From Pseudomonadota bacterium (lineage in GTDB: Bacteria; Pseudomonadota; Alphaproteobacteria; Dongiales; Dongiaceae): a stretch of DNA of 64,000 bases. Positions within the stretch are counted from its first letter, which is position 1. Each line of letters opens with the position of its first letter. The notes beneath the pieces were generated by a model that was not told the DNA's origin, searched no databases, and was given only the letters and a program-made list of their open reading frames with translations. Position numbers and translations under genes: made by a program. Shown here piece after piece: positions 35,390 to 53,627 of the stretch. Location: positions 310,001-374,000 of the forward strand of contig JAJYUT010000004.1 in the NCBI GenBank assembly GCA_021792365.1, read 5' to 3'.

Positions 35390-35401
35390 GGACGCAGCAA
35401 G

Positions 35402-36562
35402 ATGGGCATCGAGCTTCATAGCGTTGGGTCGCCGCCGGGTCTCCGGCTGTCGCAGCGCATCCGGCAGATCCCCTGGAGCCTCGTCATCCTCGTCGCGATG
35501 GTGGCGTCGATCGGCTTCGTGATGCTGTATTCCGCCGCCGGCGGGGACCCAGACCGATGGATGAACAAGCAGATGATCCGCTTCGCGGTCGGCATCTGCG
35601 TCATGCTGGCGATCGGCATGGTCGACCTGCAGCGGCTCGCGAAGATCGCCTATCCGCTCTATGCCGTCGCTCTGGTGCTGCTGATCTATGTCGAGTTCGC
35701 CGGCGAGATCGGCATGGGCGCGCAGCGCTGGATCGACCTAAAGGTCTTCCAGCTCCAGCCATCGGAGTTGATGAAGATCTCGCTGTGCCTGGTCCTCGCG
35801 CGCTATTTCCACGGCCTCAGCTACGAGGAGATCGGCCGGCCCTGGGTGCTGATTCCCCCGACCTTGCTGGTGATCCTGCCGGCCGGGCTGGTGCTGAAGC
35901 AGCCGGACCTGGGCACCGCGGGCATGCTGCTGATGGTCGGCGGCGCCATCTTCTTCGTGGCCGGCGTGCGCTGGTGGAAGTTCGCGATCGTGTTCGCGCT
36001 CGGCATCGTCGGGGCGGTCGTCGCATGGAATTCCGGCTTCCTGCACGATTACCAGAAGGCGCGCGTCCTGACCTTCCTCGATCCCTCGCGCGACGCGCTC
36101 GGAAGCGGCTACCACATCACCCAGTCCAAGATCGCCCTGGGTTCCGGCGGCGTGTGGGGCAAGGGGCTGCTGCAGGGCTCCCAGGCCCAGCTCAACTTCC
36201 TGCCGGAGCGCCACACCGACTTCGTCTTCACCATGCTGGGCGAGGAACTCGGGATGGTGGGTGGCCTGCTGGTGCTGACGCTCTATTCGCTGCTGGTGGT
36301 CTATGGCGTCGCCATCGCGCTGCGGACGCGCAGCCATTTCGGGCGCCTGCTGGCGTTCGGCATCGCCATGAACATCTTCTTCTATTTCTTCATCAACACG
36401 GCGATGGTGATGGGCCTCATCCCGGTCGTCGGCATCCCGCTGCCGCTGATCTCTTATGGCGGCACCGCCATGATGACGGTGATGGTCGGTTTCGGTCTCC
36501 TGATGGCGGTCTACATCCAGCGCGACCACCGGGTCGGCCGGCGCAGCTCCAACGAGGAGTGA
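35402..36562 (+). CDS. rodA: RodA, peptidoglycan glycosyltransferase (SEDS family)
   Basis: This 386-residue membrane protein of about ten helices is a SEDS-family polymerase with the conserved blocks AQRWIDLKVFQLQPSELMKI, LKQPDLGTAGM, GSGYHITQSKIALGSGGVWGKG and LPERHTDFVFTMLGEELG (the catalytic aspartate region near WxD in SEDS). It polymerises lipid II during elongation with PBP2 (mrdA, 12 bp upstream). It is the last gene of the operon. Confidence 0.97.
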   Translation: MGIELHSVGSPPGLRLSQRIRQIPWSLVILVAMVASIGFVMLYSAAGGDPDRWMNKQMIRFAVGICVMLAIGMVDLQRLAKIAYPLYAVALVLLIYVEFAGEIGMGAQRWIDLKVFQLQPSELMKISLCLVLARYFHGLSYEEIGRPWVLIPPTLLVILPAGLVLKQPDLGTAGMLLMVGGAIFFVAGVRWWKFAIVFALGIVGAVVAWNSGFLHDYQKARVLTFLDPSRDALGSGYHITQSKIALGSGGVWGKGLLQGSQAQLNFLPERHTDFVFTMLGEELGMVGGLLVLTLYSLLVVYGVAIALRTRSHFGRLLAFGIAMNIFFYFFINTAMVMGLIPVVGIPLPLISYGGTAMMTVMVGFGLLMAVYIQRDHRVGRRSSNEE

Positions 36563-36920: not shown

Positions 36921-38144
36921 CTACGTCCCTGACAAGAACAACCTCAGATCCGTGCTGGGGTCGGCGATTGCCGATCTCGAGATCGAGCGGCCGGCTTCGA
37001 GCATTTTCTTGCCGATGCCGTATGCCAACGCATCGTTCATGGCATCGACGGCGATCAGCCGGTCTTCCCGGTAGTACCAAACAGACGCGCTCTGCTCCCG
37101 TTTGCCAGGTCGCATGACACAATCGGCATAGCCGCGGTTCAAACCTGCGATCTGGAGCTTCACATCGTATTGGTCAGACCAGAACCAGGGTGCCGGATCG
37201 TAGTCATCCTCCGCCCCCATCATTGCGGCCGCGGCATGCTCCGCCTGATCGATCGCGTTCTGGACGGCTTCGAGCCTGGTCGAGATCCCGCGCCATTGAA
37301 ACCGCGCGCAATCGCCGGCGGCATAGACGTCCGGCGCTGACGTGCGACACGATCCGTCGATCAGAATGCCATTGTTAACGGCCAAGCCCGCGGCGTGGGC
37401 AAGATCGTCATTGGGAATGATCCCAATGCCGACGATCGCAAGGTCGGCTGGCAGATGCGTCCCATCCTTGAGGCGTGCACCGGTCAGCCTCCCGGCCTCT
37501 CCGGCAAGATGATCAAGTGCTGCCGATTCTCGAATCACCACGCCGTGCTTCCGATGCAGAGCGCGGAAGTAATCGGCCGTCACCGGGGCCGCGACACGCT
37601 GCAGGATACGATCCGCCACTTCGATGATGGTGACGGCCAACCCCTTAGCGGCGGCGACGGCCGCGCCCTCGAGGCCGATATAGCCGCCACCGATCACCAG
37701 CAGCCGCTTGCCAGGCTCGAGCAGCGGCGCGATCGCATCGGCGTCTGCGACCGTGCGAATGGTGAAGACACCGCTGAGATCGCCCCCGGCCTCCGTCGGC
37801 AGTCGGCGCGGGCGCGCCCCGGTCGTCAGGGCGAGCTTCGCGTAGCGAAGCACGGATCCGTCGCCGAACGTGATGGTCCGCTCCGTTGGCGAGAGCGCGG
37901 TGGCGGTGACGTCCAGCCGAATGTCGATCCGCTGGTCCTCGTACCAGCCCGGAGGACGGATCAGCAGGCGCGCAAACTCGAGCTCGCGCGACATGTATTT
38001 CTTGGACAGCGGCGGACGCTGGTAGGGCAGGGCGGACTCCTCGCCGACCATCACGAGGGGTCCGGCATAGCCCAATGCCCTCAGCCTCGACGCCAGGGCG
38101 GCTCCGGCCTGGCCCGCGCCTATGATCACGATCGGGTCGACCAT
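36921..38144 (-). CDS. NAD(P)H-dependent ferredoxin reductase (putidaredoxin reductase type)
   Basis: This 407-residue FAD protein has an N-terminal FAD-binding GxGxxG (IIGAGQAGAALASRL), the family block LPYQRPPLSKKYM and a second Rossmann motif (VIGGGYIGLEGAAVAAAKG) for NAD(P)H, then the AGDCARF motif contacting FAD. It passes electrons from NAD(P)H to a [2Fe-2S] ferredoxin. The ferredoxin gene lies eight bases upstream and a P450 two genes further up, so it is the first link of a class I P450 electron-transfer chain. Confidence 0.93.
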   Translation of the reverse strand: MVDPIVIIGAGQAGAALASRLRALGYAGPLVMVGEESALPYQRPPLSKKYMSRELEFARLLIRPPGWYEDQRIDIRLDVTATALSPTERTITFGDGSVLRYAKLALTTGARPRRLPTEAGGDLSGVFTIRTVADADAIAPLLEPGKRLLVIGGGYIGLEGAAVAAAKGLAVTIIEVADRILQRVAAPVTADYFRALHRKHGVVIRESAALDHLAGEAGRLTGARLKDGTHLPADLAIVGIGIIPNDDLAHAAGLAVNNGILIDGSCRTSAPDVYAAGDCARFQWRGISTRLEAVQNAIDQAEHAAAAMMGAEDDYDPAPWFWSDQYDVKLQIAGLNRGYADCVMRPGKREQSASVWYYREDRLIAVDAMNDALAYGIGKKMLEAGRSISRSAIADPSTDLRLFLSGT

Positions 38145-38151
38145 CGACAGG

Positions 38152-38469
38152 CTAGATGTCAGGCACGTGCAAGATGAGCCCGTCCAATTCCTCGCTCGCC
38201 TTGATCTGGCAGCTGAGCCGGCTCATTGGCGTGCGCTCGGCCGAAGTGATCTCCAGCATTTCGTTCTCCATATCGCCGGGACGGCCGGTCTTCTCGTACC
38301 ACGCGGCGTCGACATAGACGTGGCAGGTGGCGCAGGAGAGACAGCCCCCGCATTCGCCGATCACGTCCGGGACGCTATTTGCGACCGCCGCCTCCATCAG
38401 GTTGTGGCCCGCCGCCACCTCCGCGCTGATCTGGCGGCCATCGTGCAGGATCCAGGTCACCTTCGGCAT
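38152..38469 (-). CDS. [2Fe-2S] ferredoxin (putidaredoxin/adrenodoxin type)
   Basis: This 105-residue ferredoxin has cluster ligands C40, C46, C49 and C87 in the adrenodoxin-type spacing C-x5-C-x2-C-x37-C (ECGGCLSCATCHVY and RLSCQI). C43 is an extra cysteine not expected to bind the cluster. It shuttles single electrons from the adjacent reductase to the P450 at 39795-41054 and possibly to the second P450 at 47668. It is tightly packed in the operon (12 bp after the synthetase-like gene). Confidence 0.95.
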   Translation of the reverse strand: MPKVTWILHDGRQISAEVAAGHNLMEAAVANSVPDVIGECGGCLSCATCHVYVDAAWYEKTGRPGDMENEMLEITSAERTPMSRLSCQIKASEELDGLILHVPDI

Positions 38470-38481
38470 CGACGGCTCCGC

Positions 38482-39771
38482 TCAGACAAAATGGATGTAG
38501 TAGTCGCGCAGGGCATCGCCTTCGAGCCCGGCGGTCTTCTGGATCTCGACTTCCTTGATGCCGATGTGATTCTGCACGAGCAGCTCGCCGACCTGCGCAA
38601 CCAGCTCGGCATCGTCCGCCAGCGCCTTGAGCGCCTCAGGCAGGGATTCCGGTGCGCCCACCTTGGCATCGTGCGCCGTGAAGCAGTCGGCCTGTTCGGC
38701 CGGCGGCAGCTCGTATTTCTGGGTGAAGCCGAGGCGTGCCGCCTGCAGCACGGTCGCGGTCAAGGTGTATAGATTGGCCGATGCGTCACCCATGCGATGT
38801 TCGATGCGGGACTTGGCGCCATGTTCCGCCGATAAACGGGTGGTAACGCCGCGGTGATCGATGCCCCAGTTGCACCAATAGCCGGAGAGGGTCGCGGGCT
38901 TCAACCGATGATAGGAACTGACGGTCGGCGCGACCAGGCCCGCCATCCCGCGATGATGATGCATCAGGCCGGCTACGCACCCGCGGGTCAGCGCTGTCAG
39001 ATGCGCGACGTTGCCGCATTCGCCCACGGCGTTCCGACCCTGGGGGTCGAGGAAGCTGAAGTTGACGTGCAGGCCGCTGCCGCCAACGTTCAGGATAGGC
39101 TTCGGCATGAAGGTCAGGATGATGCCGTGCTCGAGCGCGATCTCCCGCGCCATCAGGCGGAACAGAAACACATCATCGACCGCCTTGACCGCGTCGTCGT
39201 AGGTCAGCGTGAACTCGAATTGCGGCGAATCGTACTCCGAGGTGAAGCAGTCGATGTGGAACCCGACCTCGCTTGCCCTCTCCCAGATCGCATCGGTGAA
39301 GCGCAAGGGGTCGACATAGCGCCCGGTGCCGTAGACGTAAGCCCCCGGCGTCTGATAGGGAACGATCCGGCCCTCGGCATCGCGCTGGAACGCAAAGGCC
39401 TCGAGCTCGAGGCCAACCTTCGGCGAGTAGCCGAGGTCCTGCCACTGCTTGACGGTGCGCTTGAGCAGGCTCCGGCCGCATAGCGCGAGCGGCTTGCCGC
39501 TGCTCTCATAGAGGTCGGCAATGACGACCTTGGTGTTGGGCTCCCAGCCCTGGCGGATATCCTCCTCGACATAGATCGCCTCCATGTCCGGCAGGCCTTC
39601 GAGCATCGAGCCGCCGGGCGCGGGCACCAGCTCCTTGTCATAGGTCACCGCAAAGGTCCCTTGGCAAAACCGCGAGGAGCCATTGCCCATCTTGCTGGCC
39701 GGCAGGTATTTGCCACGCGCCAGGCTGAGATGATCGCAGAACAGCAACCTCAGTCTTTCCCCCACCGCCAT
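38482..39771 (-). CDS. Glutamine synthetase-like gamma-glutamyl/amine ligase
   Basis: This 429-residue protein has the GS catalytic domain: GLELEAFAF at 120-128, metal-site glutamates in SEYDSPQFEF (E179, E186), GSGLHVNFSF (H235), APTVSSYHRLKP, CNWGIDHRGVTTR and IEHRMGDASANLY. The N-terminal beta-grasp is short. The W-G-x-D-H/N-R pattern resembles gamma-glutamyl-polyamine and amine synthetases more than housekeeping GlnA, and no glutamine synthetase regulator is nearby. It would join an amine to glutamate using ATP. Its position between a P450 and the ferredoxin recalls the mycobacterial morpholine/piperidine loci. Substrate unknown. Confidence 0.82.
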   Translation of the reverse strand: MAVGERLRLLFCDHLSLARGKYLPASKMGNGSSRFCQGTFAVTYDKELVPAPGGSMLEGLPDMEAIYVEEDIRQGWEPNTKVVIADLYESSGKPLALCGRSLLKRTVKQWQDLGYSPKVGLELEAFAFQRDAEGRIVPYQTPGAYVYGTGRYVDPLRFTDAIWERASEVGFHIDCFTSEYDSPQFEFTLTYDDAVKAVDDVFLFRLMAREIALEHGIILTFMPKPILNVGGSGLHVNFSFLDPQGRNAVGECGNVAHLTALTRGCVAGLMHHHRGMAGLVAPTVSSYHRLKPATLSGYWCNWGIDHRGVTTRLSAEHGAKSRIEHRMGDASANLYTLTATVLQAARLGFTQKYELPPAEQADCFTAHDAKVGAPESLPEALKALADDAELVAQVGELLVQNHIGIKEVEIQKTAGLEGDALRDYYIHFV

Positions 39772-39794
39772 CTATCTCCCCCGGATGCTTGACC

Positions 39795-41054
39795 TCATTG
39801 ATGAACGCAGACCGGCAGGCGCTTGATGCCGCCGATGAAGTTTGAGCGCAGGAATTCATGCGGTCCCGTCTGCTCGATGCCCGTGATGCGCTTGACCAGC
39901 TCCCGCAGCAGGATCCGGACCTCCAGCCGCGCCAGCCACATGCCGAGGCAGACATGCGGCCCGCCTTGCCCGAACGCCACGTGGCGGTTCGGTGTGCGCC
40001 GGAGATTGATGTCGAACGGCTGGTCGAAGGCCGTCTCGTCGCGGTTGGCGGAGACGAACCACAACAGCACCTTGTCGCCCGCCTTCACGTGCTTTCCATG
40101 CAGTTCGAAGTCACGCGTTGCGGTGCGCCGGAAATGCATGGTGGGCGACGCCCAGCGGATGAATTCATCCGGGGCCGTCTCCCACATCTGATTGTCGCCG
40201 CTCTTGAGCTCGGCGAGCAGCGCGGGCCGGTTGGCGAGCGCGTAGAGCGACGCCGCGATCGAGTAGCGCGTGGTGTCGTTGCCAGCGGCGACCAGCAGGC
40301 AGAAGAAGTTGCGGAACTCATTCTCGGAGATCAGGTTGCCGTGGGAGTTCGGCCGCAGGATGAGGTGCAGCACGCCGCTGGTGTCGCCCCTCTTTTCCTT
40401 CTCTCGCATCAGCGCCTTGGCGTAGTCGAACAGCTCGGCGCCCGCCGGCGAGCGGAACGGCATCAGGCGGTAGGCATCGGTATCCGCCTTGTCCAGGACA
40501 TGCTCGGTGAACTCTGGGTCGGTATTCGCAATCAGCTGGTCGCCCTTCTCCACCAGCCAGTCGAGGTCGGTGTCCGGAACGCCGATGATCTGCCCCAGCA
40601 TGCGCATGGGCAGCTGGCGCGCCACGTCCTTAACCGCGTCGAAGCTGCCGCGCTCCAGCACGTCGTCGAGAATCGAATCGCAGATGGCCCGGATCTGATC
40701 CTCGAACTGCGCGACGATCGGCTTGGAGAAGGCCTTGCTCACCAGCACGCGCGTGCGCGAATGCTCCGGCGGGTCGGTCTCCTGGAACGTCCGCCGCGCC
40801 AGGTACTCCTCGTGGGTCTGGTCCTCCATGCGGATGCCGCGGGCCGAACTCAGGAGCTCGTAATTGCGGTTGAGCTCCAGCACGTCGTGATGACGGGTGA
40901 CCGACCAGAAGCCCTTGCCGCCCTTCATCTCGCTCCAGGCCAGCGGGTCCTCGCAACGCATTCGAGCGAATGTGTTGTATGGCGCCCCGGCCAGGAAGGA
41001 ATCGTGGTCGGAAAGGTCGGCATGGCCGTTGTCAGTCGGGGCGAAACTCGTCAT
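39795..41054 (-). CDS. Cytochrome P450 (first of two)
   Basis: This 419-residue soluble bacterial P450 has I-helix oxygen-activation motif AGNDTT (257-262), K-helix ExxR as EFIR (E297, R300), FRRTATRDFEL and the heme loop FGQGGPHVCLG with ligand C369. All core motifs are canonical. With the ferredoxin and reductase downstream it makes a complete class I monooxygenase. The HFRRTA and LLWFVSANRDE blocks resemble P450s acting on terpenoid, steroid-side-chain or other hydrophobic substrates, but the cluster argues for an aromatic or amine substrate. Unresolved. Confidence 0.95.
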   Translation of the reverse strand: MTSFAPTDNGHADLSDHDSFLAGAPYNTFARMRCEDPLAWSEMKGGKGFWSVTRHHDVLELNRNYELLSSARGIRMEDQTHEEYLARRTFQETDPPEHSRTRVLVSKAFSKPIVAQFEDQIRAICDSILDDVLERGSFDAVKDVARQLPMRMLGQIIGVPDTDLDWLVEKGDQLIANTDPEFTEHVLDKADTDAYRLMPFRSPAGAELFDYAKALMREKEKRGDTSGVLHLILRPNSHGNLISENEFRNFFCLLVAAGNDTTRYSIAASLYALANRPALLAELKSGDNQMWETAPDEFIRWASPTMHFRRTATRDFELHGKHVKAGDKVLLWFVSANRDETAFDQPFDINLRRTPNRHVAFGQGGPHVCLGMWLARLEVRILLRELVKRITGIEQTGPHEFLRSNFIGGIKRLPVCVHQ

Positions 41055-41093
41055 CTCTCCGCTCTTACGCCGCTTCCGGCTCGTGCCGCAAGA

Positions 41094-41894
41094 TCACCGC
41101 TCGATTCTCGGCACCAGCGATTTGCCGCCGTTCCACACCACGCCGATCTGGCGGTAGTACGCGCCGATGATTTCCCGCACCTCGAGCCGCGCCAGCTCCT
41201 CGGTGGGCGAATCAAGCAGCGCAAAGCGATCGACGGTCGCTCGCCATGGCTGAGCCCCCTCGAATTTCGCGCCGGTTGATTCGATGAGCTCGGCATGGAC
41301 GTCGCCCGTGCCGTCGATCGCCGGCAGCCAGCGGTGATGCGCCATCGGATGGCCGTTGACGAAACCATTGCGCTCGGCCGGCTCGCTCAAGGTGATGATC
41401 GCCTCCGCCAGGCGCCGGTCGTTGGCGGCGAGGGTCGCGCCGAACCTGCCGCCGGCTGCGACCTGCGGTGCCGGCGCGAACGGATGCGGGCGCGTGATAT
41501 GGATGGAGCCGAGCTTTTTGGGGTAGCCCTGATGGATGCCGCGCAGCAGCGCGAAATCCTTGTCCACCCAGATATAGATGCAGCGCGAATAGATGCGGCC
41601 CTCGAACGTGCAACGCACCACCGCGAACGCTTCCTTGTACTGCGCACGCACGGGATCCAACATCTCAGCTTGCGTCCCACCACAGGACTGCCAGTCGGCC
41701 CAGATGAGGGCGACTGCCCCCGGATCCTCCGCAGCCGGCGTCAAAGGCGCCGGCAACAATTCCGCCACGCGCGCGGGGTCGGTGCGGAACTCGATTGTCA
41801 GCAGGTCGCCGGAATAATACCACGGCGGCGGCGGCAGCAGCGAGGCCTGACCGCTGGCGCTGCGCGGATAGAAGAAGCCCTTCGGCTCGCTCAT
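41094..41894 (-). CDS. Acetoacetate decarboxylase-fold enzyme
   Basis: This 266-residue protein is of the ADC family. The Schiff-base lysine site is present as HQGYPKKLGS (K126, K127; the classical enzyme has PKK at the same place), and the N-terminal PPPPWYYSGDLLTIEFRTDP block is typical. The fold also supports aldolase-dehydratase and other Schiff-base reactions, so decarboxylation is not certain. It lies four bases from the FAH-family gene within the ring-cleavage operon and may act on a ring-cleavage product. Confidence 0.85.
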   Translation of the reverse strand: MSEPKGFFYPRSASGQASLLPPPPWYYSGDLLTIEFRTDPARVAELLPAPLTPAAEDPGAVALIWADWQSCGGTQAEMLDPVRAQYKEAFAVVRCTFEGRIYSRCIYIWVDKDFALLRGIHQGYPKKLGSIHITRPHPFAPAPQVAAGGRFGATLAANDRRLAEAIITLSEPAERNGFVNGHPMAHHRWLPAIDGTGDVHAELIESTGAKFEGAQPWRATVDRFALLDSPTEELARLEVREIIGAYYRQIGVVWNGGKSLVPRIER

Positions 41895-41897
41895 CGC

Positions 41898-42752
41898 TCA
41901 GGCTCCCGGCTTCTTGGGCGGGCGGATGCCGCGGAACTCCCAATCGCCGCCCAGCGCCGTAGACAGCACTTCCTCCGACTCCGTCGGCTGCGCGCCGAGA
42001 TCCTCGCGGATCGGCTCCGGCCCTTCGACGATGCGGTTGGCAAGGCGCCCCAGCCCTTCGATTTCGACCTCCACCATGTCGCCCGGCTGCACCGGCCGCG
42101 AGTTCGCAGGCGTGCCGGAGAGCAGCACGTCGCCGGGCTCCAGCGTGATATTGCGCGCGATGTCTGCGACCAGGTAGTGCATGTCCCAGGTCATCTCCGC
42201 GGTGTTGCCGTCCTGCTTGAGCTCGCCGTTGACATAGGTGCGCAGATACTTGTTGCGGAAGTCCCAGCCGGTGACGAGAGCCGGCCCGAGCGGGCACAAT
42301 GTGTCGCTGCCTTTCACGCGCAGCATCGACCCCGCATCGGTGTCGCGGAAATCGTGCAGGCCGAAATCATTGGCGACGGTGTAGCCGGCGATGTAGTCGC
42401 CGGCCTCGCGCTGCGAAACGTTGCGGCATCGCCTGCCGATCACGATGCCGACCTCGCCCTCGTAGTTCAGCCACTTGCAGCGCTTCGGGCGCACCACGTC
42501 GCCGCCGTGGGCGTTGAGCGAGGAGAGCGGCTTGTGGAAATAGGTCGGCGTGGCGGTGAGCTTGATCTGAAATTCCTTCACGCGGCTGACGTGGTTGAGG
42601 TGCACGCAGACGATCTTGGTGGGCACCACGGGTGGCAGGTGCACGGCATTGGCGATCGCGATGCGCCGGCCGTCGCGCGCCACCAGCTCCTCGCCCTGCC
42701 GCTCGGTCTCGACCACAGCGCCTGCCAGCAAGATTCGACGAAATTCCCGCAC
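41898..42752 (-). CDS. Fumarylacetoacetate hydrolase-family isomerase/decarboxylase
   Basis: This 284-residue FAH-fold protein carries the metal-binding pattern YEGEVGIVIGRRC with E, plus the later NDFGLHDFRDTD and the LEPGDVLLSGTPANSRPVQPGD loop. In homoprotocatechuate catabolism the FAH-fold enzyme HpaG/HpcE isomerises and decarboxylates the ring-cleavage product. Here a single-domain protein sits between the extradiol dioxygenase and the ADC-like gene, supporting a similar role. The specific reaction is inferred. Confidence 0.85.
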   Translation of the reverse strand: MREFRRILLAGAVVETERQGEELVARDGRRIAIANAVHLPPVVPTKIVCVHLNHVSRVKEFQIKLTATPTYFHKPLSSLNAHGGDVVRPKRCKWLNYEGEVGIVIGRRCRNVSQREAGDYIAGYTVANDFGLHDFRDTDAGSMLRVKGSDTLCPLGPALVTGWDFRNKYLRTYVNGELKQDGNTAEMTWDMHYLVADIARNITLEPGDVLLSGTPANSRPVQPGDMVEVEIEGLGRLANRIVEGPEPIREDLGAQPTESEEVLSTALGGDWEFRGIRPPKKPGA

Positions 42753-42775
42753 GTTGCTTCTCCCCTGACCTGACC

Positions 42776-43636
42776 TTAGCGCGAGTCGAACCAGACATGC
42801 ACCTGTCCGGTGCCGATCGCGTTCTCGTACTCGCTATAGAGCCGGCCCCGCGCGCGCCATTCGCCTTCGCCCATCGCTGCCGCCATCATCAGATAATGGC
42901 CGAAATTGGCTTCAGGCTTGAACTTCAGGAACTCCGGCATGGTGGCGAGGATGCGCGCATGGTCGCCCGCCTTCATCCACGCGATGCGCTCCAGGTCGGC
43001 GGCGGAGTGGGCCGGGCTGAAGATATGCTCGATGCCGGCCGCCTCGTGCTCACGCAGCTTCTGCAGCGGCCAGAACTTGTGGCTCATTGCGCCGGAAGCC
43101 AGCAGCACTACGCGACGGTCGATATTCGCGATCGCCTCGCGCAGCGCGCGGCCGACGCGCAGGAAATCCTCGCTCTCGCCGGTCTGGGCGCAGCTGACCG
43201 AGACCCACGCCTCCTTGCCACGCTGCAAGTAGAACGCCGGATTCACGGTCGCGTACTGGATCGGCAGATGGGGGTCGTCGATCGCCGTGATCCAGGTGCC
43301 GTGCTTGCGGCCCAGTGCGGCGGCAGCCACGGCGAACTCCGGATCGCCCGGCAGGTCAAAGGGCACTTGCGACATGCCGCGCGGCAGCTCGTCGGAGGTG
43401 TATTTGCCAGTACGGCGCGCATGGCCCGTGATGATGTACTCGACCGTGGTGAACCAGTGCGAGTCGAAGACGATGACAAGATCATAATCGAGCTCGGAGA
43501 GAACCTCCCGGCGCAGGCGATGGAAGCCCTCGACCACGGTGAAATCGCGGCCGTTGTTCAACTCGTGCCGGATATCCTGCGGCAGCATGACGGTGGGCAC
43601 GTGGGCGATCAACCCGCAGCCGACGACCTTACCCAT
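42776..43636 (-). CDS. hpaD: Class III extradiol ring-cleavage dioxygenase, homoprotocatechuate 2,3-dioxygenase-like
   Basis: This 286-residue LigB-superfamily protein matches the enterobacterial HpaD/HpcB family along its full length, with shared blocks AHVPT, VIVFDSHW, YTSDELPR, VLLASGAMSHKF and GTGQV. The expected Fe(II) ligands H12, H60 and E242 fall at the family positions. It opens a catechol ring next to the hydroxyls, most likely 3,4-dihydroxyphenylacetate or a related catechol. Its 3' end is 24 bp before the FAH gene, and its start overlaps the aldehyde dehydrogenase 3' end by 8 bp. Confidence 0.9.
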   Translation of the reverse strand: MGKVVGCGLIAHVPTVMLPQDIRHELNNGRDFTVVEGFHRLRREVLSELDYDLVIVFDSHWFTTVEYIITGHARRTGKYTSDELPRGMSQVPFDLPGDPEFAVAAAALGRKHGTWITAIDDPHLPIQYATVNPAFYLQRGKEAWVSVSCAQTGESEDFLRVGRALREAIANIDRRVVLLASGAMSHKFWPLQKLREHEAAGIEHIFSPAHSAADLERIAWMKAGDHARILATMPEFLKFKPEANFGHYLMMAAAMGEGEWRARGRLYSEYENAIGTGQVHVWFDSR

Positions 43637-45092
43637 GTGTCCTCCAGCCGTGCGGCGCGTAAACGCTGTTCTTGACGTCGCAATAGAAATCGAACGACCA
43701 GGTGCCGCCTTCGCGCCCGATGCCGGACTTGCCGTTACCGCCGAAAGCCTGGCGCAAGTCGCGCACGAAGAAACAGTTGTTCCATACCAACCCGGCGGAG
43801 ACTTGCGCCGTCACGCGCTCGGCGCGCTCGGGATCGCCGGTCATCACCACGGCAGCGAGGCCGTATTCCGTGTCGTTGGCGAGCGCGATCGCTTCTTCTT
43901 CGGTGCGGAAGCTCTGCAGGCAGAGAACCGGGCCGAAAACCTCCTCGCGCAGGATCTCCGATCCGGCCGGTGGATCGACGAACAAAGTCGGCCGGTAATA
44001 GAGTCCGCCGAGGTCCCTGTTGGGGCCGCCGCCCAGCGCCGGCTGGAGACCGGACGCCAGTGCCCGTTGCACGAAACCGTCGACGCGCTCGAAATGAGGC
44101 CGGCTGATCTGCGGGCCGATATCGGTCGCATCGTCGCGCGGATCGCCCTGCCGTATTGCTTTGGCCTTAGCCAGAAAGGCTTCGAGGAATTTTTCCCGGA
44201 TGCTTTCCTCGACCAGCAGGCGCGTCCCCGCGAGGCACACCTGCCCGGCATTGTCGTACTGACCAACGGCGGTGTTGACCGCGAGGTCGAGGTCGCAATC
44301 GGCGAACACGACGAACGGCGACTTGCCGCCCAGTTCGAAGGACAGCGGCACCAGGTTGGCGCCGGCGGCCGCTGCGATCTGCCGTGCGGTAGCGACCGAG
44401 CCGGTGAAGCTGAGGCGCCGGACCTTCGGGTGGCGCGCGAGCGCAGCGCCGGCCTCGCGACCGATCCCCTGCACCACATTGAATACGCCGTCGGGCACCC
44501 CAGCCTCGGCCGTGACGTCCGCCAGCAGCGATGCAGTCAGCGGCGCCCACTCAGGCGGCTTGTATACCACGGTGCAGCCGGCGGCGAGCGCCGGCGCGAT
44601 GCGCCAGGTACCCAGCATCAACGGCGCGTTCCACGGCGTAATGATGGCGGCGACGCCGCTCGGGTCCCAGCTCACGTGGTTGCGGTGACCGCGCACGTCG
44701 AAGTCGGCGTGATCGAGTTGCAGCAGCCAGTCGGCGAAGAAGCGGAAATTCATGGCGACGCGCGGCATCACCCCGCGGCGGTGGGAACGCAGCAGGGAGC
44801 CGTTGTCGCGCGTCTCCACCTGCGCCAGGATCTCGACCCGTGACTCGATGATGTCGGCGATGCGGTGCAGCAGCCGAGCGCGCTGCTCGCGCGGAGTGCG
44901 TTTCCAGGTCTTGAAGGCTGTGGCGGCGGCCTCGACCGCCTGGTCGATGTCCGCCGGGCCGCCGGCCGAGACTTCAGCGATCACGCCTTCATCGATCGGC
45001 GAGACGGAGTGGAACCGCGCGGCGCTCTCGACCCGATGGCCTGCAATCCAGTGCCGCGTGTCGACCTCATGACCTTCGACGCGAGTCATCAT
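43629..45092 (-). CDS. Aldehyde dehydrogenase (carboxymethyl-hydroxymuconate semialdehyde dehydrogenase-like)
   Basis: This 487-residue NAD-type ALDH has the catalytic cysteine in NAGQVCLAGTRLLV, the general base in FELGGKSPF, and the coenzyme motif SFTGSVATARQI. It is the first structural gene after the MarR regulator and overlaps the extradiol dioxygenase gene by 8 bp. In the homoprotocatechuate pathway HpaE oxidises the semialdehyde made by the dioxygenase, which is the likely job here. A palindromic operator lies 20 bp upstream of the start codon. Confidence 0.92.
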   Translation of the reverse strand: MMTRVEGHEVDTRHWIAGHRVESAARFHSVSPIDEGVIAEVSAGGPADIDQAVEAAATAFKTWKRTPREQRARLLHRIADIIESRVEILAQVETRDNGSLLRSHRRGVMPRVAMNFRFFADWLLQLDHADFDVRGHRNHVSWDPSGVAAIITPWNAPLMLGTWRIAPALAAGCTVVYKPPEWAPLTASLLADVTAEAGVPDGVFNVVQGIGREAGAALARHPKVRRLSFTGSVATARQIAAAAGANLVPLSFELGGKSPFVVFADCDLDLAVNTAVGQYDNAGQVCLAGTRLLVEESIREKFLEAFLAKAKAIRQGDPRDDATDIGPQISRPHFERVDGFVQRALASGLQPALGGGPNRDLGGLYYRPTLFVDPPAGSEILREEVFGPVLCLQSFRTEEEAIALANDTEYGLAAVVMTGDPERAERVTAQVSAGLVWNNCFFVRDLRQAFGGNGKSGIGREGGTWSFDFYCDVKNSVYAPHGWRTHG

Positions 45093-45111
45093 CGCCGAGC
45101 CTCGGGAAAAC

Positions 45112-45128
45112 CGTTCGATATCGAATGA
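45112..45128 (-). promoter_or_regulatory. Putative MarR operator, site A (upstream of the ring-cleavage operon)
   Basis: CGTTCGATATCGAATGA contains the perfect 12-bp palindrome TTCGATATCGAA (45114-45125). It lies 20 bp upstream of the aldehyde dehydrogenase start and 45 bp past the MarR stop, where a repressor could block transcription or initiation. A nearly identical copy lies at 45987-46003. Confidence 0.7.
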
Positions 45129-45166
45129 TCTCTCAAATGCCGGGTCGAGTCAAGACTAGGACGCGC

Positions 45167-45760
45167 TCAGGCTTCGTCTTCGTCCAGCCGATCGAGCTCG
45201 GCGATGGTAGCGAGGATGGTGCGGATCGCATCGGTCGCGGCAGCCATCTGCTTCGGCGTCAGGCGCGCTGCGATCCGGGTTTCCTCCGCGTTGAATTTCG
45301 GAAACAGGGCGCTGATCAGCTCGGCGCCGGAGGCGGTCAGGTTCACGATCACCAGCCGCCGTTCCGCCTCGTTGGCGCGCCGGCGGATCAGCTTCCGGCC
45401 CTCGAGCATGTTGAGGATGCTCGAGAGCGTGCTCTTGGCCACACCGGTCTCCACCGCCAGGCGCCGCGTCTCCAGTTCGCCATAGATCCACAAGCACCAG
45501 AGCGTGACAAAAGCCGACCAGTGCAGCCCTGCTTCCTCCAGCACCGTGCGCTCGAAATGCTGGCGGATCAGGCCAGAGGCGCGGTGGATGTTGGAGATGA
45601 GCGCCATGGACTGCAAGTTGATCCGCAGCCCCGCCACCTTCTGCTCGCCCAGGATCTCGGCCAACGGCTTCTTCGCCTTCTTCCGCGCGAGGCCGGCTGC
45701 AGGGCCATCCTGCGTCGGCTGCCGTTTGGTTCCCGTCGTGCCCGGACGATCCCGATTCAT
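45167..45760 (-). CDS. MarR family transcriptional regulator
   Basis: This 197-residue winged-helix protein has a basic Lys/Arg-rich N-terminal extension of about 35 residues, then a MarR core: HFERTVLEEAGLHWSAFVTLWCL, ETRRLAVETGVAKSTLSSILNMLEGRKLIRRR (recognition helix) and the wing with ANEAERRLVIVNLTASG. MarR proteins are usually repressors released by phenolic ligands, which fits a neighbouring aromatic pathway. It lies between two copies of a 17-bp palindrome, one on each side, and so probably controls itself, the catabolic operon and the permease/P450 unit. Confidence 0.92.
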   Translation of the reverse strand: MNRDRPGTTGTKRQPTQDGPAAGLARKKAKKPLAEILGEQKVAGLRINLQSMALISNIHRASGLIRQHFERTVLEEAGLHWSAFVTLWCLWIYGELETRRLAVETGVAKSTLSSILNMLEGRKLIRRRANEAERRLVIVNLTASGAELISALFPKFNAEETRIAARLTPKQMAAATDAIRTILATIAELDRLDEDEA

Positions 45761-46139
45761 GCTAGCTCCTCATGGCGTTCCCGCCGCTTATAGCATCGGC
45801 GGACGATGGCGATGAAGAACTGAAATGCCGTCACGCGCGATGGTCGCGGCAGGATCCAACCCGGTGACGCGAGTGTTCTCCATCCTCGCGATTACTTGGC
45901 CGCTTCCGCGCATTGCTGCGCCGCGGCAGGCGGCCGAACAGCACGTTGCGCACAGGTCCCTTGCTCCCGACGTGGTTTTGTAATATCGTTCGACATCGAA
46001 TGAATAAGAATTGGGCGTGTCGCTGACCAGCGCCGGCCGGCCGATCAAATCGGCGCGGCGGCGAAGGACGGGCCGCGCCTGCGGGGGAGGAACAGCGGGC
46101 GCCGGACTACGAACCGCCTGCACGTCAGGGGAGGACGAC
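45761..46139. promoter_or_regulatory. Divergent MarR/permease control region
   Basis: This intergenic region of 379 bp between the divergent marR-type gene and the permease has no coding frame of its own. It contains operator site B (45987-46003), preceded by TAATAT at 45981-45986, which could be a -10 element for the permease. The rest shows no RNA gene or repeat. Confidence 0.6.
45987..46003 (+). promoter_or_regulatory. Putative MarR operator, site B (upstream of the permease/P450 unit)
   Basis: CGTTCGACATCGAATGA differs from site A by a single base; its core TTCGACATCGAA is a near-palindrome. It lies 137 bp before the permease start and 227 bp before the MarR start. The shared sequence on both sides of the regulator gene is the main evidence for a common regulon. 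Confidence 0.7.
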
Positions 46140-47606
46140 ATGGCAGAAACACTTCAATCGACAAGCCAGGCGAGTGCGGGCTCAGGCCAGTTGCGCCGCA
46201 ATGCGCTGGGCGTCGCGGCGATTACTTTTTTCGTGGTGTCTGCGGCCGCGCCGCTGACCGCGGTCGCGGGGGGCTATCCGATCGCGATGCTGCTGGGCAA
46301 CGGGGCCGGCGTGCCCGCCGCCGTGGTGCTGGTGACGGTGATCCTGCTGTTGTTCTCGGTTGGCTACACAGCGATGGCGCGGCATATCTCCAATGCCGGA
46401 TCGTTCTACGCCTTCACGTCGCGCGGTCTGGGCGGCGTCGCGGGCGGCGCGGCCGCCTATATTGCGCTGCTCGCCTACAACACCATGCAGATCGGACTCT
46501 ACGGTTTGTTTGGCGCGGTGACGGCCGGCACGCTCGCGGGCTACGGCATCGACCTGCCCTGGTGGGCGTGGTCGCTGATCGCGCTCGCCATCGTGGCGTT
46601 CCTCGGCTACCGCCAGATCGACCTGTCGGCCAAGGTGCTGGCGGTCCTGGTCATCCTGGAATATGTCGCGGTCGTGATCCTGGATGTCGCCATCATCGGG
46701 CAGGGCGGCGCGGCGGGCATTGACTTCACCAGCTTTACGCCGGGCGCGTTCCTCAGCGGCTCGACCACCATCGGCGTGCTTATTTGCTTTGCAGCCTTCA
46801 TGGGCTTCGAGGCGACCACGATCTACAGCGAGGAGGCGCGCGATCCGAAGCGCACTGTCCCGCGTGCGACCTATCTGGCGGTCTTCATCATCGGCGTATT
46901 CTATGCCATCAGCACCTGGGCGATGGTACTGGGGGTGGGCGCGGACAAGGTGGTCGAGACCATCGGCGGCCTGCCTGATCCCACGTTGTATGTTCCCACG
47001 CTGTCCGATCAATATGTCGGCGGATGGTTGACAACGATCATAGGCCTGCTGCTCGTCACCAGCGTGTTCGCGGCGCTCCTCGCCTTCCACAATGCGGCGG
47101 CGCGCTATTTCTATGTTCTCGGACGCGAGGGCCTGCTGCCGGCCAAACTGGGCAACACCCACGATGCGCATCAAAGCCCGCATAGCGGATCGGTGCTGCA
47201 GACCGTGCTCGGCATCGTCGTGCTCGCGCTCTTTGCGATCACCGCGCAGGACCCGATCTTCGCCCTGTTCACCTGGCTCACCAACACCGCGACCCTCAGT
47301 GTCATCACGCTCATGTCGCTGGTGTCCTTCGCGATTCTGGCCTTCTTCAAGAAGGAGCCGGCGCTCGAGCCGTCGGCACTCAAAGCGTCGATCGCGCCGC
47401 TGCTGGCCGGACTCGTGCTCGCCGTCATAGCCATCCTGGTGGTCGTTAATTTCGGCGTGCTGACCGGCGCGGCGGCGTGGCTGGCAATTGCATTACCCCT
47501 GCTGGTGCCCGTGGCGGCTGTGCTTGGCGCGCTGGCGGCAAACAACCTGAAGCGGAGCGAGCCAGCGCGGTTCGCACAGATGGGCGCGCATCAGGCTGGC
47601 CGGTAG
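46140..47606 (+). CDS. APC superfamily amino-acid/amine permease
   Basis: This 488-residue protein of about 12 helices has the APC opening GVAAITFFVVSAAAPLTAVAGGYPIAM and a helix 6 region GFEATTIYSEEARDPKRTVPRA, both diagnostic of the amino-acid/polyamine/organocation superfamily. It imports amino acids or amines with a cation. The start at MAETLQ follows GGGGAGG. It is cotranscribed with the second P450 (61 bp downstream) and shares an operator with the ring-cleavage operon, so it may import that pathway's substrate. Confidence 0.93.
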   Translation: MAETLQSTSQASAGSGQLRRNALGVAAITFFVVSAAAPLTAVAGGYPIAMLLGNGAGVPAAVVLVTVILLLFSVGYTAMARHISNAGSFYAFTSRGLGGVAGGAAAYIALLAYNTMQIGLYGLFGAVTAGTLAGYGIDLPWWAWSLIALAIVAFLGYRQIDLSAKVLAVLVILEYVAVVILDVAIIGQGGAAGIDFTSFTPGAFLSGSTTIGVLICFAAFMGFEATTIYSEEARDPKRTVPRATYLAVFIIGVFYAISTWAMVLGVGADKVVETIGGLPDPTLYVPTLSDQYVGGWLTTIIGLLLVTSVFAALLAFHNAAARYFYVLGREGLLPAKLGNTHDAHQSPHSGSVLQTVLGIVVLALFAITAQDPIFALFTWLTNTATLSVITLMSLVSFAILAFFKKEPALEPSALKASIAPLLAGLVLAVIAILVVVNFGVLTGAAAWLAIALPLLVPVAAVLGALAANNLKRSEPARFAQMGAHQAGR

Positions 47607-47667
47607 CGAGAACGATTCTTCAATCTTCGGAGGGCCAGGGCACAGCCCTGGCCTGCGGAGGAGGGGC

Positions 47668-48855
47668 ATGGCCTTTGCAGACGAGATCACGGTCGCCGCG
47701 CTCGAGGCGGACCCCTATCCCATCTACGCCCGCCTGCGCCGCGAATCGCCGGTCGCCTGGGTGCCGGCGGCAAATGTCTGGTTCGTGACGCGCTGGCAGG
47801 ATGTCGAGTTCGTCAGCAAGAACGCAGCGCTGTTCGCGGCCGAGGTTGCGACCTCGCCGGTCGAGCGCTCCATGGGCAAACCGACGATCCTCACCTGCGA
47901 CGGGCCGCCGCACGACGAGCTGCGCCGCGGCTTCGACCAGAAATACAAGCCGCGCGCCGTCTCTGAATACATAGACGAGCTCGCCCGGCCGCTTGTTGCT
48001 GAGTACCTGGAACGGATTGCACGGCGCGGTGAAGTCGACCTGATGGCCGAGTATTTCGAGCCGCTGTCAAGCCTGGCCCTGGCGCGCTCGCTCGGCTTCG
48101 ACAGCGTCGACGTGAAGACGCTGCAGCGCTGGTTTCACGGCATGGCCATCGGCGCCGCGAACTACGAGAATGATCCCGAGAAGCAGGCGATCTCCGACGC
48201 CGCCAATGCCGAGGTCGAGGCGGCGATCATCCCGATCTTCGAGAAGCTGGAGCGCAACCCGGACGATTCCGCGATGTCACGCATGCTTCACGACGGCATG
48301 GAACCCGGGTGCACGCGGTCGCGGGCATTCCTGCTGCCGTCGATCAAGGTCGCGCTGCTGGGCGGGATGCAGGAGCCGGGACATGGCGCCGGCACGGTGC
48401 TGTTCGGGCTGCTCACCAATCCGGAGCAAATGGGGGCTGTGCAGCGAAACCTGGACGGCCTGCTGCCGAAGGCGGTGGATGAGGGGCTGCGTTGGATCGC
48501 ACCCATCGGCACGCAGATGCGCCAGGCGACGCAAGACGTCGAACTGGGCGGTGTCACGATTCCGGCCGGCGCGCCCGTGGCATCAGTGCTTTCGTCCGCC
48601 TGCCGCGACGAGGCGCGCTACAAGGAGCCGGACAGCTTCGACATCCATCGCACCGAGACCGGCCATGCGGCCTACGGCTTCGGAAGCCATTTCTGCGCCG
48701 GGCGGTGGTTCGCGCAGCGCCTGATCCCGCACTTGCTGCGCCCGCTGCTGGAGCGCCTGCCTGATCTCAAGCTGGTGCCAGACCGCCCGCCGATGTTCCG
48801 CGGCTGGGAATTCCGCGCGCCAACCACGCTGCACGTCGCGTATCGGCCGAACTAA
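47668..48855 (+). CDS. Cytochrome P450 (second), atypical I-helix
   Basis: This 395-residue P450 has ExxR (E272-R275, EGLR) and the heme loop YGFGSHFCAGR with C343. The I-helix block that normally reads A/G-G-x-D/E-T-T is GGMQEPGH (232-239), so the conserved acid-alcohol pair is changed to E-P and there is no threonine at the usual place. It starts 61 bp after the permease with a GGAGGAGGGG site. No own redox partner is encoded; it probably uses the ferredoxin and reductase of the neighbouring operon. Substrate unknown. Confidence 0.93.
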   Translation: MAFADEITVAALEADPYPIYARLRRESPVAWVPAANVWFVTRWQDVEFVSKNAALFAAEVATSPVERSMGKPTILTCDGPPHDELRRGFDQKYKPRAVSEYIDELARPLVAEYLERIARRGEVDLMAEYFEPLSSLALARSLGFDSVDVKTLQRWFHGMAIGAANYENDPEKQAISDAANAEVEAAIIPIFEKLERNPDDSAMSRMLHDGMEPGCTRSRAFLLPSIKVALLGGMQEPGHGAGTVLFGLLTNPEQMGAVQRNLDGLLPKAVDEGLRWIAPIGTQMRQATQDVELGGVTIPAGAPVASVLSSACRDEARYKEPDSFDIHRTETGHAAYGFGSHFCAGRWFAQRLIPHLLRPLLERLPDLKLVPDRPPMFRGWEFRAPTTLHVAYRPN

Positions 48856-49387
48856 TTCGGCCATGTCCTTGAGAGCGACACGGTAGCAATGTCGGACCCA
48901 TGGATACGCGATGGGAATCAGAAGCGGCGGTAGACACATGTCCGCGCTAGGTGAGCTTTCCTCTCGGTAGGCCGACATGCATTCGCATGCATCCGCGGCT
49001 CACGACGTCCATATAAGCTACCGCCGACTCCTCGCGTGGCCCAGCAGATATCGGTCGCTCTCCACGTAGGGCCCGAAGCGGCGATCAGTGCCGCCATGGC
49101 CCCATGCTCGACCCTGGTACGTTGATGGCCGGCGGCGCATGACAGTCTCGGCCATACCCAATTTGCGATGGGGCAACGCACGTGGCCGCGCACAGTCCGA
49201 CGTCATGATCACCGCGAATCTCCGACGAAGTCTGGGCGGTCGGATAGCGCTGGGCGTACGGTGTCGGAACAGGATTGCGCTCCGCGGGTTTCCCCGGGCG
49301 TGGCGGGGTGGGCGCGGACATGTGGGGTTCCGTGGCCCTGGCGTTCCGGGGCCATTGGCATCGAGCGAGGAGCATCGAGAGGTGGAG
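48856..49387. other. Non-coding stretch of about 530 bp
   Basis: No frame on either strand looks like a protein here. A small inverted repeat (CATGCATTCGCATGCAT near 48977) is visible. The region lies between the catabolic locus and the glycan locus and probably holds the promoter of the sulfotransferase gene. I see no tRNA, IS remnant or attachment repeat. Confidence 0.5.
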
Positions 49388-50689: not shown

Positions 50690-50787
50690 TCACTGGCGCC
50701 TATGCGTGGCGCGGCTCACAACCTTGATGGCGATGCGACACGGTTGACAGAGCGCTTTTACGGAGCCGCCGGCTGGAGCTCTCGGCC

Positions 50788-53586: not shown

Positions 53587-53627
53587 GAACCCCTCTCGCT
53601 TTTGAGACCGCCCGCCCGGACCGGTGC

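Follow-up and report, generated by a model that had tools for sequence, protein, structure and literature searches.

The locus described here can be compared with several known systems. With the homoprotocatechuate/4-hydroxyphenylacetate meta-cleavage pathway (hpaGEDFHI) it has HpaD-, HpaE-, HpaG-C- and HpaR-like proteins in common, as well as the logic of cleavage followed by oxidation and decarboxylation; unlike that pathway, it adds a glutamine synthetase (GS)-like ligase, cytochromes P450 and an ADC-fold enzyme, and its proposed substrate bears a glutamyl amide. A gamma-glutamyl tag attached by a GS homologue links it to the Puu pathway (PuuA-PuuB-PuuC-PuuD) and to Streptomyces GlnA3/GlnA4. 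PuuC- and PuuD-like genes are found in actinomycete versions of the locus, and gamma-glutamyl-aminobutyraldehyde is proposed as the common intermediate; however, the proposed route does without the PuuB amine oxidase step, its aldehyde being expected to come from ring cleavage and aldol cleavage. In the degradation of aniline and 1-naphthylamine (AtdA1, NpaA1; GoaS), the amine sits on the ring and is lost upon oxygenation. There the aromatic amine is glutamylated first, by a GS-like ligase without the flap glutamate, as described in PMC11335346. Such a ligase is common to both systems, whereas the route considered here would involve a side-chain amine, P450s and a tag that persists. To our knowledge, the PipA and MorA clusters (piperidine/morpholine), whose substrates are cyclic amines, include no ring-cleavage dioxygenase. 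They do combine a P450 and its ferredoxin partner with a GS-like gene nearby (PMC9477822), a grouping that recurs in our locus. The second P450 of the locus (P450b) has chains of GcoA, from the guaiacol O-demethylase GcoAB, among its closest solved structures; in place of the three-domain reductase GcoB, of which no relative is encoded at the locus, a separate ferredoxin and ferredoxin reductase are present. Finally, the closest solved kin of the ADC-fold protein, namely MppR, 6eej/4zbo and 5upb, have the position of the Schiff-base lysine in common with it, and we know of none that belongs to an aromatic-amine operon. Among the open-access papers searched, we found no published description of this gene set.

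The window, the whole 64 kb stretch of DNA analysed, contains eight minus-strand genes 3' of an HpaR-like MarR gene and, opposite them, a divergent plus-strand unit. An open reading frame was found for every named gene, and profile searches returned the expected Pfam families:

36921..38144, minus strand: FdR, ferredoxin reductase (Pyr_redox_2 205.7 bits, Reductase_C 102.8 bits)
38152..38469, minus strand: Fd, 2Fe-2S ferredoxin (Fer2 36.8 bits)
38482..39771, minus strand: predicted GS-like gamma-glutamyl-amine ligase of GoaS type (Gln-synt_C 217 bits)
39795..41054, minus strand: P450a, cytochrome P450 (p450 66.5 bits)
41094..41894, minus strand: ADC-fold enzyme (ADC 168.8 bits)
41898..42752, minus strand: predicted FAH-fold decarboxylase/isomerase, HpaG C-terminal-domain-like (FAA_hydrolase 198.9 bits)
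42776..43636, minus strand: predicted LigB-type extradiol dioxygenase, HpaD-like (LigB 90 bits)
43629..45092, minus strand: HpaE-like aldehyde dehydrogenase (Aldedh 520 bits)
45167..45760, minus strand: HpaR-like MarR regulator (MarR 33.8 bits)
46131..47606, plus strand: APC-family amine/amino-acid permease, start codon provisional (family called from NCBIfam only: TIGR00909 amino acid transporter, 91 bits, below cut-off)
47668..48855, plus strand: P450b, cytochrome P450, GcoA-like (p450 54.6 bits)

These frames and their Pfam/NCBIfam matches, together with the order kept in relatives, confirm the eight-gene set and the divergent permease/P450 unit reported in the earlier note.

On balance, we consider it probable that the operon serves the inducible catabolism of phenethylamines (dopamine, tyramine, 3-methoxytyramine or close kin) and that the glutamyl tag stays attached through ring cleavage. 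The APC permease would import the amine, which some relatives would make in situ from DOPA or tyrosine, and the GS-like ligase would join gamma-glutamate to the side-chain nitrogen. P450b would O-demethylate a 3-methoxy group and P450a, working with Fd and with FdR as electron supply for the P450(s), would hydroxylate the ring, the two together giving gamma-glutamyl-dopamine. The HpaD-like enzyme would then open the catechol ring with the tag still on, the HpaE-like dehydrogenase would oxidise the ring-fission semialdehyde and possibly the terminal aldehyde too, and the FAH-fold enzyme would carry out isomerisation and decarboxylation. Hydration and cleavage of the resulting 2-oxo-enoate by the ADC-fold enzyme would release pyruvate and gamma-glutamyl-4-aminobutyraldehyde; the latter would be a substrate of PuuC, as in the putrescine pathway, and its oxidation and PuuD-type hydrolysis would yield GABA and glutamate. 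Carbon accounting for the canonical sequence on a CH2CH2NH-gamma-Glu side chain ends in the same two products, gamma-Glu-4-aminobutyraldehyde and pyruvate, and with the nitrogen capped, no free amino-aldehyde able to cyclise would form. We infer every reaction, every substrate and the persistence of the tag through ring cleavage; the observed basis is gene content, gene order, two operator copies, protein families and, in relatives, decarboxylase, O-demethylase and PuuC/PuuD genes at the same locus. We put the chances of a broader proposition at about even: that the nitrogen is capped as a gamma-glutamyl amide while the catechol is dismantled, that meta-cleavage is fused to Puu, that an ADC-fold enzyme does the work of HpaH and HpaI, and that this happens in at least two phyla, on dopamine, tyramine and 3-methoxytyramine.

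The best NCBIfam models are HpaE for the aldehyde dehydrogenase (518 bits vs a cut-off of 638), HpaD_Fe for the dioxygenase (136.6 vs 315.95) and HpaR for the MarR regulator (43.4 vs 121), while HpaG-C is second-best for the FAH-fold protein (208 vs 276). The nearest solved structure of the HpaD-like protein is a 3,4-dihydroxyphenylacetate 2,3-dioxygenase (8iq8, 2e-21), and its residues H12, H60 and E242, which we take to be the metal ligands, are conserved in at least 97% of 81 aligned sequences among the matches listed. Identity as a DOPA dioxygenase was considered and dropped, the nearest 4,5-DOPA dioxygenase scoring just E 0.014. Across the 17 genomes of the order, HpaD over its curated cut-off was found in none; HpaF (PF02962, CHMI) matched none of them and none of 14 control genomes, although in the wider phylum the same model matches 20 of 120 genomes. 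HpaH and HpaI over cut-off were likewise found neither in the 17 genomes nor at the locus, which, as had been noted earlier, lacks HpaF, HpaH and HpaI; family members below cut-off are present in 13/17 genomes (HpaH) and 16/17 (HpaI). The tag might instead come off before ring cleavage: P450a would oxidise the carbon next to the nitrogen, the amide would collapse and, after an aldehyde step, free 3,4-dihydroxyphenylacetate would enter the ordinary homoprotocatechuate meta pathway, ending in succinate semialdehyde and pyruvate. The three best models and the second-best fourth fit this reading, as does the sufficiency of one aldehyde dehydrogenase in the window, and an HpaE-type enzyme is also able to oxidise succinate semialdehyde (PMC12718150). 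We nevertheless regard early loss of the tag as unlikely, since all the Hpa assignments lie below curated cut-offs and HpaF is unmatched in all 17 genomes of the order.

The ligase itself is consistent with amine glutamylation. Leu295 aligns with the residue of B. subtilis GS (4lnf) that we take to be the flap glutamate, and among 78 aligned homologues (the window and 77 loci, among the matches listed) this position is Leu in 74, Ala in two, Thr in two and Glu in none. The flap glutamate is also missing in amine-glutamylating enzymes, according to PMC6529630 and PMC11335346. With Gln-synt_C at 217 bits and Leu295, the window ligase has the GS catalytic domain minus the flap glutamate, the combination used as the criterion for GoaS. 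The alpha-type and actinomycete ligases are only about 32% identical, which makes equal substrates for both groups an assumption. We do not claim independent GS recruitment in alphaproteobacteria and actinomycetes: the two form separate branches in the tree, but own-genome paralogues are long-branched, so that a single origin may apply as well. P450a, whose nearest solved relatives are CYP125MRCA, CYP268A2, CYP126, CYP125 and CYP124, is proposed to hydroxylate the ring of the tagged amine. P450b is a candidate aryl O-demethylase; one of its closest matches among solved structures, at 290 bits (about 1e-85), is GcoA, annotated as "aromatic O-demethylase, cytochrome P450 subunit", and the P450s 8u09 and 9ia1 score almost as high. 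Relative to GcoA, it has Met in place of Phe at position 75 and Ala, beside a gap, at position 169 (Phe in the wild type), and it keeps Phe395.

The ADC-fold protein is closest to MppR-type members (MppR 1.2e-55, 6eej/4zbo 2e-50, 5upb 1.4e-31; 3bh2 only 0.0043). It retains the Schiff-base lysine position, and K126-K127 of its PKK motif are invariant in 13/13 aligned sequences. The proteins 4zbo/6eej and 5upb have aldolase-dehydratase activity. We propose that the enzyme is a hydratase-aldolase replacing HpaH and HpaI; alternatively, the HpaH- and HpaI-family homologues elsewhere in the genome could supply these activities. ADC-related proteins of this kind are proposed in PMC7820114 as the aldolase of phenol meta-cleavage in one archaeon. 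The role is not extended to the entire ADC family: homologues with 39-44% identity occur in Tistrella, Bradyrhizobium and Rhizobium, in two annotated stretches without a ring-cleavage gene and in a third that is unannotated.

The conservation of gene order is far beyond chance. The order HpaE-HpaD-FAH-ADC-P450a-GS-Fd-FdR, with the MarR gene and the divergent APC permease, is shared by 10 of 11 relatives of the same bacterial order; in the eleventh (L031) a contig end cuts the locus and GS-Fd-FdR alone is visible. The comparison of gene order with related loci proposed in the earlier note thus yields the same order in every one of the ten relatives with unbroken contigs. The idea that the combination is peculiar to one genome does not hold: the relatives share it, and many actinomycetes have a version of it with substitutions. 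P450b is present in 7/10 relatives, a count limited by two stretches (L028 and L030) that stop within or just past the permease; in L027 a thymidine phosphorylase occupies its position. Six pairs of loci apparently come from the same genome (L021/L044, L022/L043, L024/L045, L027/L049, L029/L046, L030/L048), so that alpha-type counts in the full-flank survey overlap with those from the 10-11 relatives. The GS of L022, a decarboxylase-bearing relative, is 86% identical to that of the window.

Two palindromes are candidate operators:

45113..45126, plus strand: putative operator copy 1, RTTCGANNTCGAAY, 20 bp upstream of hpaE
45988..46001, plus strand: putative operator copy 2, RTTCGANNTCGAAY, in the gap between the MarR and permease genes

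The palindrome has exactly two copies in the window, against 0.02 expected from shuffles. Rather than sharing a single operator, as first thought, each transcription unit has its own putative copy. The two-site layout, including the site upstream of hpaE, is found in 10/10 relatives, and L026 has a third site. Of the 131 loci examined, 17 carry the palindrome, every one Dongia-type and none actinomycete, which limits the regulatory claim to the window's group; in this search it was not found in L018, L050 and L051. By eye, from the alignment, copy 2 adjoins a promoter-like TTGCNN-N17-TATCGT.

The locus is not unique: related gene sets occur in many actinomycetes. The survey comprised 84 loci; a set of 80 loci, the best of at least 562 matches, is biased toward close ADC relatives. 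The full-flank count leaves out 20 of the 84, in which a contig end lies less than 8 kb from ADC. Among the matches listed, 56 full-flank actinomycete loci include a GS in 55 (the exception being L052), a P450 in 51, a PuuC-like aldehyde dehydrogenase (at least 55% identity to reference copies) in 47, a PuuD-like hydrolase in 47, and both in 46; nine of the 56 have no PuuD-like gene in the stretch. Wherever both occur, they are adjacent and on the same strand (46/46 with trimmed queries; over-long reading frames as queries gave 30/46), with a 4 bp overlap between the frames in S. canus. The number of PuuD-like genes also varies with the query, from 48/84 loci with a single query to 58/84 with four or five. 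The best NCBIfam models for the S. canus proteins are PuuC (568 bits vs a cut-off of 850) and, weakly, PuuD (83 vs 266). By the same tests, neither gene is found in any of the eight full-flank alpha-type loci, and in the window locus a decarboxylase gene is missing as well as PuuC- and PuuD-like ones. PuuD homologues of the window's own genome are unlinked to the locus and were rejected as linked pathway genes, none lying beside aldehyde dehydrogenase or GS genes. L055 reduces the set to GS, ADC, HpaE, HpaD, FAH, PuuC and PuuD, with no P450 found within its 20.8 kb stretch; among the matches listed, GS and the ring-cleavage core are retained in five full-flank loci whose stretch shows no P450. 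The latter loci argue against early loss of the tag, which would there need a P450 from elsewhere, and such a route also leaves the PuuC-PuuD pair unexplained.

Lincomycin-type and betalain pathways use extradiol-cleaved DOPA; MppR, the closest match to the ADC-fold protein among solved structures, has a biosynthetic role; and many hosts among the matches listed are Streptomyces. The cleaved catechol might by the same token build a natural product, but this seems to us highly improbable, the HpaR-like regulator, permease and Puu-type genes being of catabolic type and the annotated neighbours, which are part of all neighbours, including zero assembly-line genes.

Under the catabolic reading with a persistent tag, locus context (decarboxylases, O-demethylases, PuuC/PuuD) points to phenethylamines as probable substrates. 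In 4/10 relatives the operon also contains a PF00282 decarboxylase gene, placed between those for ADC and P450a; these four proteins are 66-90% identical to each other, and the sole one compared (L028) scores 744 bits with the solved DOPA decarboxylase 7xin vs 370 for the next. A tyrosine-decarboxylase-like gene, weak against curated cut-offs and about 25% identical to the DOPA-type proteins, lies 3' of FAH in two Streptomyces loci. As a query, the annotated L017 decarboxylase matches L017, L100 and, at 32%, L078, and no other locus; short matches of the L100 frame in five other loci were discarded, this over-long frame overlapping FAH. A VanA-like Rieske O-demethylase gene occurs in two actinomycete loci, L095 and L078. 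P450a persists in all four relatives that have a DOPA-type decarboxylase, and making the catechol is thus not a full account of P450a; a P450 is missing from the stretch in both tyrosine-decarboxylase-type loci, which reverses the simple expectation. The same chemistry might act on another amine in the window's genus, such as vanillylamine or a different benzylamine, or another aromatic amine, with phenethylamines used just in the decarboxylase-bearing relatives. O-demethylase homologues would suit any guaiacyl amine, and the operon has no decarboxylase in the window and 6/10 relatives; yet gene order and the set of remaining operon genes do not change whether or not a decarboxylase is present, and the L022 ligase, at 86% identity, is from a decarboxylase-bearing operon. 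We therefore rate this alternative as quite improbable. The scheme first put forward, in which an aromatic amine is imported, gamma-glutamylated, oxidised by P450 and cleaved, is in part supported and is the best-fitting reading, narrowed by comparison to phenethylamines. Its suggestion of a new substrate need not stand, given that the in-operon DOPA/tyrosine-type decarboxylases indicate dopamine, tyramine or 3-methoxytyramine; novelty looks to lie in the route, not necessarily in the substrate.

Should this interpretation be true, an operon widespread among soil bacteria would acquire both a class of substrates and a full scheme of reactions. Three families would take on untypical jobs: a GS-like ligase acting on catecholamines, a GcoA-type P450 on methoxylated amines and an ADC-fold protein as hydratase-aldolase, which would give the ADC-fold family a physiological role. 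Gamma-glutamyl-dopamine and gamma-glutamyl-GABA are predicted as diagnostic metabolites, and the route may account for an amine-oxidase-free recycling of plant and animal phenethylamines by soil bacteria.

The eleven genes of the locus lie where the earlier note had placed them. On the minus strand, a MarR gene is followed, in transcription order, by genes for an aldehyde dehydrogenase (HpaE-like), a LigB dioxygenase (HpaD-like), proteins of FAH and ADC fold, a P450 (P450a), a glutamine-synthetase-like (GS-like) ligase, a 2Fe-2S ferredoxin (Fd) and a ferredoxin reductase (FdR); the plus strand carries an APC permease and a second P450 (P450b). The top NCBIfam models for the dioxygenase, the dehydrogenase and the regulator are HpaD_Fe, HpaE and HpaR, each under its curated cut-off, and the HpaG C-terminal domain, likewise under its cut-off, is the second-best model for the FAH-fold protein. 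With Hpa models as best or second-best matches that all stay below their cut-offs, the locus is kin to the homoprotocatechuate (hpa) system but outside its membership. Cell-wall genes lie on one side (33503-36562; a penicillin-binding protein and a RodA-like protein, judged from the look of the translations), and genes resembling a sulfotransferase, a glycosyltransferase and a sugar epimerase on the other (48918-53775). Between such unlike neighbours, the catabolic locus looks like an inserted accessory block.

Regulation appears to involve two operator copies, one per transcription unit, in place of the single shared operator proposed before. The 64-kb window contains two copies of the palindrome RTTCGANNTCGAAY, compared with 0.02 expected from shuffles:

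45113-45126, palindrome copy, 20 bp upstream of hpaE
45167-45760, minus strand, MarR gene, first of the minus-strand genes
45988-46001, palindrome copy in the divergent MarR//permease gap, beside a promoter-like TTGCNN-N17-TATCGT

The promoter-like element aligns, by eye, across relatives from the same bacterial order. All ten relatives have one palindrome copy 15-59 bp upstream of hpaE, whose start was placed by alignment, and one or more in the gap. Among 131 loci the palindrome is present in 17, every one from the window's group, and we infer that the MarR protein binds these predicted operators.

The gene-order comparison suggested in the earlier note revealed strong conservation: the whole FdR-Fd-GS-P450a-ADC-FAH-HpaD-HpaE-MarR//APC set occurs, in order, in 10 of 11 relatives, the eleventh being cut by a contig end. 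P450b was found in seven of the ten; the stretches of L028 and L030 end at the permease, and in L027 a thymidine phosphorylase takes its position. The group includes named Dongia species, and a search of 17 genomes of the order, the window's own among them, gave a ligase match at E < 1e-90 in 12. A scan with the ADC alignment, one genome per species, gave at least 562 relatives, the best 80 of which come mostly from Streptomyces, Actinomadura and other actinomycetes. In the 84 loci formed by these 80 and four plasmid loci, we found HpaE in 80, HpaD in 80, FAH in 79, GS in 77 and P450 in 74. In actinomycetes the ring-cleavage core shares 53-83% identity with that of the window, against only about 32% for the ligase and about 40% for P450a.

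Several loci are variants. A large plasmid of Novosphingobium sp. EMRT-2 (L018, 9210-18660) carries a rearranged version (GS 50%, P450a 62%, HpaD 58% identical) with two aldehyde dehydrogenases, flanked by TonB-dependent receptor genes. The S. canus locus (L019, 16969-19531) has an inserted extra P450, ferredoxin and F420-dependent LLM oxidoreductase, LLM homologues being present in 16 of the 84 loci. In S. endocoffeicus (L100, 10752-12889) the operon is followed by a GntR-type regulator and a TIGR03364-type FAD oxidoreductase, and in L028 a BenE-type benzoate transporter (6021-7226) adjoins FdR. Operons of this type also occur in contigs binned as Candidatus Paceibacterota (L051) and Candidatus Symbiobacter (L050); the former assignment is probably a binning error, because its ligase clusters with the alphaproteobacterial ones.

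What we take to be the flap glutamate of B. subtilis GS aligns with Leu295 of the ligase. Across 78 aligned ligases (the window and 77 loci) this position holds Leu in 74, Ala in two, Thr in two and Glu in none. According to two papers, loss of this residue accompanies enzymes that glutamylate amines instead of ammonia (PMC6529630, PMC11335346).

As to which amine, four of the ten whole-operon relatives (L022, L026, L028, L030) have one more gene, located between those for ADC and P450a, that scores 314-330 bits to Pyridoxal_deC; in L030 its frame overlaps that of ADC by 4 bp. The L028 protein matches the solved DOPA decarboxylase 7xin with 744 bits over 466 residues, followed by plant tyrosine/DOPA decarboxylases at no more than 370 bits, and it shares 69-90% identity with the remaining three. 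After FAH, the Streptomyces loci L017 and L100 carry a distant decarboxylase, with tyrosine decarboxylase as top NCBIfam model (129 and 121 bits; cut-off 905); for the L100 copy the leading solved matches were 5hsi ('putative decarboxylase'), 6ebn ('non canonical aromatic amino acid decarboxylase') and 7cwx ('decarboxylase'). Finding two such remotely related decarboxylases, both of the aromatic-amino-acid type, in the same kind of operon points to a phenethylamine as its substrate. The window's own operon contains no decarboxylase, and the closest in its genome to that of L028 is 45% identical and on a different contig. A third decarboxylase, in a Pseudonocardia bin (L078, 5474-6877), sits beside P450, VanA-like and PuuD-like genes.

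The Puu pathway offers a clue to the fate of the glutamyl tag: its PuuC and PuuD steps convert gamma-glutamyl-aminobutyraldehyde to GABA and glutamate. In S. canus, the top NCBIfam model is PuuC for an extra aldehyde dehydrogenase (568 bits; cut-off 850) and PuuD for an extra hydrolase, a weak match (83 bits; cut-off 266) closest among solved structures to Lin1909 and probable glutamine amidotransferases (PuuD 6vtv, 78 bits); their reading frames share 4 bp. Among the 56 full-flank actinomycete loci (at least 8 kb either side of ADC), 47 have a PuuC-like gene, 47 a PuuD-like gene and 46 both, always as neighbours on the same strand. Meta-cleavage would act on a catechol bearing a CH2CH2NH-gamma-Glu rather than a CH2COOH side chain, and aldol cleavage would then release, by our own carbon accounting, pyruvate and gamma-glutamyl-4-aminobutyraldehyde. 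Because this predicted product is exactly the substrate of the PuuC/PuuD steps, we think that the tag stays attached through ring cleavage. Neither gene occurs in any of eight full-flank alpha-type loci or is linked to the window's locus, PuuD homologues being present, unlinked, in its genome. The window's HpaE may do double duty for the missing linked PuuC-type step, since an HpaE-type enzyme can reportedly oxidise succinate semialdehyde (PMC12718150).

The nearest solved relatives of the ADC-fold profile are MppR (1.2e-55), 6eej/4zbo (2e-50) and 5upb (1.4e-31), with 3bh2 marginal (0.0043); the invariant K126 aligns with MppR Lys156. In Saccharolobus grown on phenol, two ADC-related genes are reported to rise 77- and 82-fold and are proposed to act as meta-cleavage aldolase (PMC7820114). 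In 17 genomes of the window's order, HpaF had no match and HpaH and HpaI none over cut-off. This absence, the MppR-type kinship and the Saccharolobus precedent are our reasons for tentatively giving hydration and aldol cleavage to the ADC-fold enzyme, although lower-scoring members of the HpaH and HpaI families, encoded elsewhere in the window's genome, leave it a candidate only.

Among solved structures, P450b is closest to chains of GcoA, a guaiacol O-demethylase (290 bits), with P450s 8u09 and 9ia1 close behind. It keeps GcoA Phe395, replaces Phe75 with Met and has Ala at position 169, as do the chains displayed in the alignment, where wild-type GcoA has Phe. This would allow a bulkier ring substituent to fit. 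Two actinomycete loci encode a VanA-like Rieske O-demethylase, L095 (87 bits to VanA_C) and L078 (61% identical to the L095 copy). The presence of two unrelated O-demethylases suggests that methoxylated catecholamines, such as 3-methoxytyramine, feed into the route.

A role for P450a as maker of the catechol would not account for all the loci. Five of the 56 full-flank loci (L017, L055, L075, L100, L106) lack a P450 in the sequence compared, as expected if dopamine were used directly; the part of their neighbours that was scanned showed no other hydroxylase. Both loci with a tyrosine-decarboxylase-type gene are among the five (chance about 0.007 by our own arithmetic, weak since the two strains are related). 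Against this expectation, the four DOPA-decarboxylase loci retain P450a, which must then serve a different function there unless these strains use several amines.

In the open-access papers searched, subscription papers lying largely outside this scope, no published description of this route was found, whether under the gene set, gamma-glutamyl-tyramine or -dopamine catabolism, ADC-like aldolases or P450-GS-ferredoxin clusters. A term search of the text of a review on bacterial gamma-glutamylation (PMC9397018) returned no tyramine, dopamine or P450. The nearest precedents are P450 clusters for piperidine/morpholine that include a GS gene (PMC9477822) and aniline-type pathways of glutamyl organic amine synthetase, GoaS (PMC11335346). 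The earlier observation is real, and its broad interpretation, in which an aromatic amine is imported, gamma-glutamylated, oxidised by P450 and ring-cleaved, was right in kind. These genes are best read as a gamma-glutamyl-tethered meta-cleavage pathway for phenethylamines: as a route it appears new, and the operon is widespread.
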